Origin: Wenjunlia vitaminophila DSM 41686
GTDB lineage: Bacteria; Actinomycetota; Actinomycetes; Streptomycetales; Streptomycetaceae
Assembly: GCF_000380165.1 (NCBI RefSeq)
Contig: NZ_KB904661.1
Coordinates: forward strand, 1 to 64,000
DNA: 64,000 nucleotides
Reading direction: 5' to 3'
Each line of letters starts with the position of its first letter. The stretch's first letter is position 1. A program made the translations under genes and the position numbers. The notes below the pieces were generated by a model. It did no database searches, was not told the origin of the DNA, and was given only the letters and a program-made list of their open reading frames with translations. Below, piece after piece: positions 60,836-64,000 of the stretch.

Positions 60836-60984
60836 CCCCGACCCGCCTTGCTGAGCGTCCAGCGACCACGCGACGCCGTTTGTCCTCAGCCCGTGACGAA
60901 CTCGCTCGCTCCGGCGTCACGGCATGGGCGTCGCGGGACGGTGTCGGTGCCGCGCGGGACTTATCCACAGGGCATCACCGCTCC

Positions 60985-61012
60985 TTGTCGCTTCATTTCA
61001 GCCGGTTATAAC
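60985..61012 (+). promoter_or_regulatory. Candidate sigma-70 promoter for the cupin gene
   Basis: TTGTCG (60985-60990) and TATAAC (61007-61012) are separated by 16 bases. This would start transcription about 61019, just before the chosen cupin start, and stands out in an otherwise G+C-rich region. Confidence 0.45.
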
Positions 61013-61042
61013 CTGGGTGGCAACGCGCCTCCCGTCCCTCGT

Positions 61043-61528
61043 GTGGACCGGTTGCCGGAAGGCGAATTGCAGCGCACGAAGACCGAAGGGATCCGCTTCG
61101 TGGGACATGACTCTTACTTCGATCCTCCTCTTGCCGCCACCGTCGTCGCCGAGGGATTCGCTCGCTGGAGCCCCGAGCTGCGGAAGGAATTCGACACCAA
61201 CGCACACAACGGTCAGATCGGCCAGTTGTTGGTGAAGGAGACGGATCTGCTGCGCATCTGGGAGACGCATCTTCGCCCGGGTGAGCGGGTCCCTGTTCAC
61301 CGACATGTGCTCGACTACTCCTGGATAGCCCTCACCGGCGGCCGGGTCCGCCAGCACACGAGCGACGGCACCACTCGCGAAATAACCCTTGTCCGCGGCC
61401 AGGACCTCCATTTCCACCTCTCCCGGGGGCAGTACCACCTCTATGACGTGAAGAACATCGGCGATGAACTCCTGTCATTCCTGACCGTCGAGATAAAGGG
61501 TGGAGAGAACGAGCCCCTCGACCTGTGA
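61043..61528 (+). CDS. Cupin-domain protein
   Basis: A small beta-barrel protein of about 161 residues. The cupin core runs from RPGERVPVHRHVLDYSWIAL to DLHFHLSRGQYHLYDVKN, with His residues (HRH, HFH, YHLY) placed to bind a metal ion. The first ~55 residues are an extra alpha/beta part. Function unknown; cupins range from isomerases and dioxygenases to binding proteins. The start is uncertain: GTG at 61043 follows the candidate promoter closely but lacks a ribosome site, and in-frame starts exist further upstream. Confidence 0.75.
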   Translation: MDRLPEGELQRTKTEGIRFVGHDSYFDPPLAATVVAEGFARWSPELRKEFDTNAHNGQIGQLLVKETDLLRIWETHLRPGERVPVHRHVLDYSWIALTGGRVRQHTSDGTTREITLVRGQDLHFHLSRGQYHLYDVKNIGDELLSFLTVEIKGGENEPLDL

Positions 61529-61562: not shown

Positions 61563-61612
61563 GGGTGGGGCGGGCGCCGGTGTCGTCGACGACACCGGCG
61601 CCCGCCCCACCC
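61563..61612. terminator. 50-base perfect palindrome, bidirectional terminator
   Basis: Positions 61563-61587 and 61588-61612 are exact reverse complements (25 base pairs, centre GTCGAC). It lies between the convergent cupin and aminotransferase genes, which fits a two-way terminator. It is unusually long and has no spacer beyond the central bases. Confidence 0.75.
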
Positions 61613-61630: not shown

Positions 61631-63592
61631 CTACACGGCGGAGGAGAGCGCCCGGAGCAGGGCGGTGTTCGCACGCCGGTCCCCGACGGAGATACGGCAG
61701 GTGTCCGGGACGAGGTGGCCGGTGTCGGCGACCAGGATTCCCGCGCCGCGCAGCTGTTCCATCACCCGCTCGTGCTTGTGCAGCCGGACCATCAGGAAGT
61801 TGGCCTCCGAGGGGAACACCCGGTCCACCGCGGGGTGGCCGTCCAGTGCCGTGGCCAGCCGGTCGCGCTCGGCGCGGATGAGCGGAATGCTGGCGAGTGC
61901 CCGTTGGGAGTTGGTCAGCCTGTCCCGCACGGCGTGCTGCGCCGCGTCGGAGAAGACGAAGGGCAACTGCACCCGCCGCAGCGAGTCGATGACCCCGGGG
62001 CGGGCCAGGACGATCCCACACCGCGCGCTGGCGAGCCCCCATGCCTTGGACAGGGTCCGAAGGACGACGAGGTTCTCGTGCTGTTCGACCAGTCCGGCGT
62101 ACGAGGGCTTCTCGCTGAACTCGACGTAGGCTTCGTCGATCACCACGAGGCCGCGGCTGCGGGCGATGAGGTCGTGCACCTGCGTCTGGTCGAGCCTCGT
62201 CCCCACGGGGTTGCTCGGATCACACAGGATGGTCACCCGCGCATCAGCCTCGAGGATGCGCTCGGTGTCGAGTTCCGACAGGTCCGCGCCGCGCAGCGGT
62301 ACCTCGACGACCGGCAGGCGCAGGAGGTGGGCCCAGTGGGCGTAGAGTTCGAAGGTGGGTGGTGTGACGCAGGCGCGTTCGCCGGGTGAGGTCAGCGCCG
62401 CGAGGAGCAACATGGCGCCGTCAACCGCCCCGCTGCTGAACAGGACGTGGTCCGGGCCCAGGGCGGCGAGGTCACCGTGCCCGGGCAGCTTCGACACCGT
62501 GGCCAGGTACGTCCTGGCGAGGTCGGCCGTGTCCAGGTTGGGGTAGTGGCTCTCGGCCCCCAGGAACGGGTTGGTGTTGCTCGACAGGTCGACCATGTCG
62601 AACCGTGGCCGGTGGCGGTAACGGACCGGGCCGGGGACCGGCACCCCCGTGACGGGGGGAGCCGCGAAGTGGGACAGCCCTCCTTCCTCTTCCTCCTCCG
62701 CGGGCGCGAGGTCCGGGGCGCGGAGCCAGTGGTCGAGGGGGACGAACAGGTCGGCTCCCAGGCGGCGCTTGTGGTGGACGTCCCCCCGACCGAGGTGGAC
62801 CCAGTCCAGGCCGGAGCGCCGGGCGTCGAGGTACAACTGGTACGGGGTCGCCACGTGGAGGTCGCCTGCCGCGGGGTCGTCGAGGTCGGTGGTCTGGGCG
62901 AGGTGGTAGAGGCCCCTGCCGTTGTGGGACACCGTCAGGAGCGCGACCTGGACGACGGTGTCCTTCCGACGGCGCACCAGCATCTCGGTGCGATCGGCCA
63001 GCGCGCCACCCACCAGTGCCTCGAGGGCCGCGGCGTTGTACGGGTTGCGGCGACCGCCGAAGCGTTCCGCCTGGCGCTGGTGGAGTTCCACGAAGGCGTC
63101 CCTGGCCCACGGACTGCCGTCGAGCTCGCTCAGGCGGACCCGCTCCCAGGTGGCTTCCTGGGACGCCGCGTGGTGGCGATGACGCAGGTCGCGGAGCTGG
63201 TCGGCGCCGACGCGGTTCCGCAGCACCTCGTCCACGTCCCCGGGCAGCCGGGCGACGCACTCGGTGTCGGCGGCGACGGGAACGAAGCCGGCGGCCCGCA
63301 GGGCGCGGGTGTCGTCGCTGCGGCGCACGTTGGGCACAAGGATCTGCGGCACGTCCAGCCGCTCCGCGCGGCGGACCAGTGCGTCGAGGGCGTGGGGGGT
63401 GGGGGCGGGACTCGTCGGGTTGTACGGGGTGCCGCCGCCGACGAGGGTGGGGCGCTCGAGCGCCGCGGGGGCCAGGGAGACGAACGCACCGGTGTCCCCT
63501 GCCAGGTCGGCCAGGGAGCACACGGGCACGCGGGAACCGAGGGCGGCGCACAGCACGTGCTGGAGCGCGTCGATGTCTGCGGACCTGCGCAT
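61631..63592 (-). CDS. GNAT/FemAB-like acyltransferase fused to HisC-like aminotransferase
   Basis: A 653-residue two-domain protein. Residues ~1-320 look like a GNAT/FemAB acyl- or aminoacyltransferase (LRNRVGADQLRDLRHRHHAA, then GLDWVHLGRGDVHHKRRLGA). Residues ~340-653 are a fold-type I PLP aminotransferase like histidinol-phosphate aminotransferase: CDPSNPVGT, VIDEAYVEFSE, and the PLP lysine in TLSKAWGLASARCG. The fusion suggests sequential transamination and N-acylation (or peptide modification) of one substrate. The ATG at 63592 is one base after the stop of the upstream 52-codon gene, so they are co-translated. Probably a specialised-metabolite gene. Confidence 0.83.
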   Translation of the reverse strand: MRRSADIDALQHVLCAALGSRVPVCSLADLAGDTGAFVSLAPAALERPTLVGGGTPYNPTSPAPTPHALDALVRRAERLDVPQILVPNVRRSDDTRALRAAGFVPVAADTECVARLPGDVDEVLRNRVGADQLRDLRHRHHAASQEATWERVRLSELDGSPWARDAFVELHQRQAERFGGRRNPYNAAALEALVGGALADRTEMLVRRRKDTVVQVALLTVSHNGRGLYHLAQTTDLDDPAAGDLHVATPYQLYLDARRSGLDWVHLGRGDVHHKRRLGADLFVPLDHWLRAPDLAPAEEEEEGGLSHFAAPPVTGVPVPGPVRYRHRPRFDMVDLSSNTNPFLGAESHYPNLDTADLARTYLATVSKLPGHGDLAALGPDHVLFSSGAVDGAMLLLAALTSPGERACVTPPTFELYAHWAHLLRLPVVEVPLRGADLSELDTERILEADARVTILCDPSNPVGTRLDQTQVHDLIARSRGLVVIDEAYVEFSEKPSYAGLVEQHENLVVLRTLSKAWGLASARCGIVLARPGVIDSLRRVQLPFVFSDAAQHAVRDRLTNSQRALASIPLIRAERDRLATALDGHPAVDRVFPSEANFLMVRLHKHERVMEQLRGAGILVADTGHLVPDTCRISVGDRRANTALLRALSSAV

Positions 63593-63593
63593 G

Positions 63594-63752
63594 TCAGCTC
63601 CGTCCGGGTTCGAGCGTGACCGGGGCCGGTACCGGTGCCGGGTGTGCCCGCGCGCGCCGCGGTGCGACGGCGCGGAAGGCGGTCACGGGGGGCTGGTGGG
63701 GTCTGGTCCGTTCCCCTTCGTCGACGTGTACGCCGTGGGGGTGCCCAAGCAT
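63594..63752 (-). CDS. Small peptide gene coupled to the fusion enzyme
   Basis: A 52-codon frame with an ATG at 63752 and GAGGAG eight bases upstream. The peptide begins MLGHPHGVHVDEGERTRPHQ (His-rich) and ends Pro/Ala-rich with APVPAPVTLEPGRS; it has no Cys. It has no similarity I recognise. Its position, good ribosome site and one-base gap to the GNAT-aminotransferase gene suggest a peptide substrate, carrier or leader; it could also be only a translational leader. Confidence 0.5.
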   Translation of the reverse strand: MLGHPHGVHVDEGERTRPHQPPVTAFRAVAPRRARAHPAPVPAPVTLEPGRS

Positions 63753-63895
63753 GTCGTCTACTCCTCTTCGTCGCTCCGAGGCCCTTCGTGGACGGCGTGG
63801 GTCCGTCCGTCCCGGGCATGGCCACAGGTCGCTCGCGCTTCGGGCGCGGTCGTTCGCGGCGGGCCGCGTACGCGCGTCGGTCAGCGGTGGAACAG

Positions 63896-64000
63896 CTACT
63901 CCGGCTCGGCCCGGCGCCGCTCGAGGTGGTCCTCGATGCGGTCGCGGTACTCCTCGAACAACTCGGCCAGGGTGCGGGCGACGCCGGTCCTCCAGCCGAT
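63896..64000 (-). CDS. 3' end of an unidentified gene (cut by window edge)
   Basis: The last 34 codons plus stop (TAG at 63896-63898) of a minus-strand gene that continues beyond the window. It reads IGWRTGVARTLAELFEEYRD and onward, ending in a basic helix (RRRAEPE). Codon bias fits a real gene. It lies 143 bases upstream of the peptide gene on the same strand. Too short to assign a function. Confidence 0.6.
   Translation of the reverse strand: MGWRTGVARTLAELFEEYRDRIEDHLERRRAEPE

Follow-up and report, generated by a model that had tools for sequence, protein, structure and literature searches.

Several natural-product pathways employ GNAT-fold transferases that depend on aminoacyl-tRNA, including VlmA, PacB, DhpH-C, DhpK, and BD-12 Orf11, and DhpH-C is the C-terminal domain of the dehydrophos enzyme DhpH and uses Leu-tRNA (PMC12945691). 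Sba18 and Sbb17, which have a double-GNAT fold, are aminoacyl-tRNA-dependent peptide synthases that bind streptothrisamine. The other half of DhpH is a PLP enzyme. HisC is a fold-type I aminotransferase with a PLP lysine. Here we analyzed a stretch of 64,000 nt from Wenjunlia vitaminophila DSM 41686 (the window; C27:1-64000 of a 96-kb contig), near the edge of which a FemX-like double-GNAT half and a HisC-like aminotransferase half are joined in one protein, encoded directly downstream of a 52-codon ORF (Table 1). A first-pass annotation of this DNA had read the ORF as a His-rich peptide gene coupled to the fusion, suggesting a peptide-based metabolite pathway.

Table 1. Coordinates of the features discussed (window positions, or contig positions where marked C27).
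Feature	Position	Strand	Remarks
52-codon ORF	63594..63752	-	lineage-restricted; ATG start; 1 base between its stop and the fusion
AGGAG ribosome site of the 52-codon ORF	63761..63765	-	8-nt spacing to ATG
Spacer, epimerase stop to fusion start	63593..63895	-	303 nt; -17 to 121 nt in relatives
Fusion, 653 aa	61631..63592	-	residues ~1-295 FemX-like double-GNAT; ~330-651 HisC-like PLP aminotransferase (K516)
NAD-epimerase, 317 aa	C27:63896-64849; 3′ end in window 63896..64000	-	
Adenylation-carrier-thioesterase protein, 912 aa	C27:64894-67632	-	upstream, past the window edge
ATP-grasp ligase, 386 aa	C27:67834-68994	-	upstream, past the window edge
Cupin-like gene	60848..61528	+	3′ end faces that of the fusion; uncertain start codon

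The fusion enzyme

The C-terminal half of the fusion is a class I/II aminotransferase (PF00155 at residues 349-649, 132.8 bits against a cut-off of 19.7), and the PLP lysine K516 is kept in 22 of 22 aligned fusions, an alignment that leaves out the frameshifted L009. Like HisC it is of fold type I with a PLP lysine, scoring 229 bits with TIGR01141; however, the equivalog cut-off for HisC proper (276.55) is not reached, and unlike HisC it is fused to a FemX-like domain.

That the other half is a GNAT, as the first-pass annotation proposed, is borne out by its predicted fold, whereas the sequence match to PF13480 is weak and below the family cut-off (E 0.0042), and three of seven fusion homologues match this family (best E 3e-4). 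Since the structure model of the whole fusion is poor (pLDDT 51), conclusions on this half are drawn from a separate model of residues 1-300, which is of moderate quality (pLDDT 72, pTM 0.71). The tandem two-GNAT fold is found in this model, matching Sba18, FemX, and MprF over 223-258 residues with Z 13.6-15.5. The top Foldseek matches are Sba18/Sbb17 and FemX (E 1.8e-11 to 8.6e-10), with Sba18 and Sbb17 at E 1.8e-11 and 2.4e-11 and Z 15.3-15.5 over 242-243 residues at 4.0-4.1 Å; CoA-using tandem GNATs also match the model, at a lower Z of about 12-13 (top about 15). A PDB profile search with the sequence of the same domain gave no match up to E 10.

The P-loop that binds acetyl-CoA has the motif R/Q-x-x-G-x-G/A, and none is present after strand 4 in residues 226-256 of the 22 fusions; matches of this type are scattered elsewhere in the N-terminal half of 15 of them. 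Position 275, the by-eye counterpart of FemX Lys305 and DhpH-C Lys329, is Lys in 3 of 22 fusions with the adjacent Arg276 in all 22, and the FemX-type lysine is in this respect not clearly conserved, in contrast to GNAT-fold aminoacyl-tRNA-dependent transferases. The FemX/Sba18-like fold and the lack of a P-loop after strand 4 give good motive to infer that the N-terminal half may use aminoacyl-tRNA, despite the doubtful conservation of the FemX lysine.

Residues 1-292 share the double-GNAT fold with Sba18 and Sbb17 at 15-16% identity, and the fusion sits, as such transferases do, in a Streptomyces-type metabolite operon, but it carries an aminotransferase on its C-terminal side. DhpH also contains a GNAT-fold domain, in its case aminoacyl-tRNA-dependent, with the order of parts reversed: that domain is C-terminal in DhpH, whereas the fusion starts with its GNAT half and ends with its PLP half. 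Unlike in the dehydrophos system, no phosphonate gene was identified in the window operon. It is conceivable, and we propose it tentatively, that the fusion represents a new architecture of natural-product assembly in which a FemX-like tRNA-dependent transferase, joined to a HisC-like aminotransferase, makes and aminoacylates an amine, in an undescribed conserved operon with an NRPS-like adenylation-carrier-thioesterase protein and one or two amino-acid ligases. If so, amino acids would be drawn from tRNA instead of an NRPS by the two-part enzyme of a compact operon.

Plasmid sequences searched with the fusion yielded 466 records, and coverage of the query stayed below 80% in every one. In two related loci the fusion gene is apparently frameshifted (L009:10001-11976 and L011:10001-11961), perhaps due to sequencing errors in draft assemblies.

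The short ORF in related loci

Twenty-two related loci were compared, comprising eight from Streptomyces obtained in one scan (L006-L013) and 14 (L089-L102) from overlapping draws of 394, 391, 392, and 199 genomes, of which some are possibly the same species as the former eight; because the fusions of L013 and L091 are identical, the set holds 21 different fusions. The alignments A1 and A3 comprised 6 of the 8 loci L006-L013. The enzymes are conserved among these loci (60-74% identity for the fusion, 75-84% for the epimerase), whereas a comparable ORF, sought among ORFs of at least 12 codons ending near the fusion start, is absent in 21 of the 22. In 20 loci the fusion starts -17 to 62 nt after the epimerase stop; the distance is 119 nt in L100 and 121 nt in L096, against 303 nt in the window. 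L100 holds an unrelated 34-codon GTG frame, without a Shine-Dalgarno (SD) sequence, that ends 18 nt upstream of the fusion, and the ORF near the fusion start of L099 is the tail of the epimerase frame. A search with the peptide in 297 family genomes gave a match at E ≤ 0.01 in ten, of which the window's own genome had 9.5e-30; the other nine, at 0.001-0.009, are taken for chance matches to Pro/Arg/Ala-rich sequence. An enzyme kept while the peptide is not is the outcome that the first-pass annotation had itself named as counting against its reading. The peptide was therefore rejected as the precursor of the pathway product, and the idea of a peptide-based metabolite is not supported; a peptide-antibiotic precursor is unlikely since the ORF almost never stands beside the same enzymes in relatives.

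The single counterpart, in L096, has 33 codons, begins with GTG, and meets the fusion as TGAG-ATG, which reproduces the window's geometry; it is the only homologue of the peptide found beside a fusion. Seven of its first 20 residues are identical to those of the window peptide, and the DNA around the ORF start is homologous (local score 55; 1000 shuffles gave a mean of 23.4, sd 3.9, max 42). The start region and the stop position are kept, and the length difference is divisible by three. Changes at codon positions 1/2/3 number 8/10/10 over the 26 aligned codons of the ORF pair, against 95/97/184 in the fusion, and the two ORFs appear to have diverged with no visible codon constraint, in a small test where 16% of 26-codon fusion blocks show an equally low third-position share. 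In a concatenated tree computed without L009 and L011, the window and L096 are neighbors on a branch that is not firm (support 75/87); they are probably sisters, and this grouping fits a single recent origin of the ORF. Likeness of the C-terminal ends (EPGRS and EPERG) was considered as a sign of peptide conservation and rejected, as an ER-S/G ending is also seen in the epimerases of L008, L009, and L099, and the short ORFs would share it because of the SD of the fusion. These three loci place that SD within the end of the upstream cistron and have a coupled stop-start, without the ORF. Elsewhere, CGAAGAGGAGT, the context of the ribosome site of the window ORF, is the ribosome site directly 5′ of the fusion in L094, L095, and L098, and CGAAGAGGAG is the corresponding site directly 5′ of the fusion in L010.

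Origin of the short ORF

In the layout of its signals the ORF is as the first-pass annotation described it, with AGGAG at good spacing and its stop TGA followed by a single base, C, and then the fusion ATG at 63592. It could still be a chance open frame in a GC-rich spacer, not meaningfully translated, with the fusion served by its own GGAG, located 5 nt 5′ of its ATG. When the 303-nt spacer is shuffled by dinucleotides, 4% of the resulting sequences have a closed ATG ORF of at least 52 codons, or 27% when GTG and TTG starts are included. Of the 101 ATG-first ORFs with 40-80 codons in the window, 8 are accompanied by an SD-like 4-mer. By these rates, frame and ribosome site together exceed chance expectation somewhat, though not compellingly. 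The GC content by codon position (0.87/0.62/0.79) is not gene-like, compared with 0.77/0.49/0.92 in the fusion and 0.74/0.47/0.94 in the epimerase, and the peptide has no match in Pfam or NCBIfam. An accidental frame would nevertheless have to account for an AGGAG at ideal spacing, for a context in common with the ribosome sites of the fusions of relatives, and for L096 retaining both the frame and the stop-start geometry, and we regard it as unlikely.

Far less probable is a RiPP-like role in which, in this lineage only, the 52-aa peptide serves as a substrate or scaffold that the FemX-like half extends or acylates, as peptide aminoacyl-tRNA ligases do, while relatives use free small molecules. 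Such a role would suit the excellent ribosome site, the tight coupling, the relative in L096, and an adjacent half resembling aminoacyl-tRNA-dependent transferases; it is difficult to reconcile with 21 of 22 loci having the same enzymes without the ORF, with the lack of visible codon constraint between its two copies, and with the flanks of the window and eight loci, among which no conserved protease or transporter gene was seen. That the ORF is an attenuator leader sensing histidine or charged tRNA is hardly credible, for although five His codons precede a HisC-like gene, they form no run and five of 52 residues is unremarkable (shuffling this DNA gives at least five in 9% of cases, which also makes “His-rich” a weak description), no terminator-like site was found by a simple consensus scan, RNA folding is no stronger than in shuffles (z +0.63), and a single base separates the ORF stop from the fusion. 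The same kind of scan found no promoter-like site.

What we consider probable is that this is a young spacer ORF, likely a translational bridge, in an operon that makes its metabolite without a gene-encoded peptide and whose fusion makes and acylates an amine. Because the CGAAGAGGAGT context stands directly 5′ of the fusion in three relatives, one lineage would have gained inserted sequence that parted the fusion start from an ancestral ribosome site, and the short ORF would have arisen there; loss of the ORF in other lineages may be an alternative to such insertion. If translated, the ORF would carry ribosomes over the unusually long spacer to the fusion at TGAC-ATG, and bridging is probably the most that a young, lineage-restricted ORF would do, if it does anything. 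The locus would then illustrate that spacer DNA can acquire a stop-start coupling and an appealing ribosome site although no peptide is conserved there. A false lead, the peptide precursor, is removed, and the operon with its fused aminoacyltransferase-aminotransferase is the lead that can be tested.

The operon and its neighborhood

As had been anticipated, the metabolite operon continues past the window edge, where the ATP-grasp, adenylation-carrier-thioesterase, and epimerase genes are found; of the genes suggested to lie there, those for metabolite enzymes are present, but the gene groups shared between the flanks of the window and eight loci revealed none for a conserved transporter or protease, in a comparison of rough gene calls by GC3 in which part of the shared groups was identified. 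The cupin homologue adjoins the fusion in all 22 related loci (23 of 23 with the window), in either orientation. The operon is uncommon; in the sampled genomes of the family its share is a few percent at most (5 of 394, and 11 of 392 in one genus), and no published account of it was found in open-license PubMed Central texts; it is apparently an undescribed, conserved small-molecule operon of Streptomycetaceae.

The best PDB match of the ATP-grasp family profile is to L-amino acid ligases (4wd3, E 3.4e-14). The 912-aa protein has the order of NRPS-like adenylation-carrier-thioesterase enzymes, with GGTS and GYSYG motifs, and its nearest solved adenylation domains are those of McyG (4r0m) and 6ulw; unlike such enzymes, it shares its operon with genes for an ATP-grasp protein, an epimerase, and a cupin. 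McyG-type adenylation domains load aryl or keto acids, not amino acids, and from this general preference we infer that the window domain may act on the same class of substrate. The product would be a small amino-acid-derived metabolite, formed by the L-amino-acid-ligase-like ATP-grasp enzyme, the adenylation-carrier-thioesterase protein, the NAD-epimerase/dehydratase, and the fusion, whose HisC-like half would install an amino group and whose FemX-like half would then acylate the amine; the amino acid for this step would most likely come from aminoacyl-tRNA.

The ATP-grasp gene, single in the window operon, occurs in two tandem copies in L008:3560-5936, L009:3635-6009, and L013:3325-5978. A 593-aa carbamoyltransferase adjoins the operon in five of nine loci (L007, L009, L011, L012, and L013; L012:12477-14258 on the minus strand), two of the five having been checked with Pfam; as the window genome has only 37-39% relatives of it, located elsewhere, it was rejected as a member of the operon. 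Beyond the ATP-grasp gene, L005:8615-11488 (plus strand, C27:69614-72487) encodes a protein of 957 aa that includes an eCIS core domain (PF13699). Just past the convergent fusion and cupin genes, positions 61563-61612 of the window form a perfect 50-base self-complementary stretch, presumably a bidirectional terminator.
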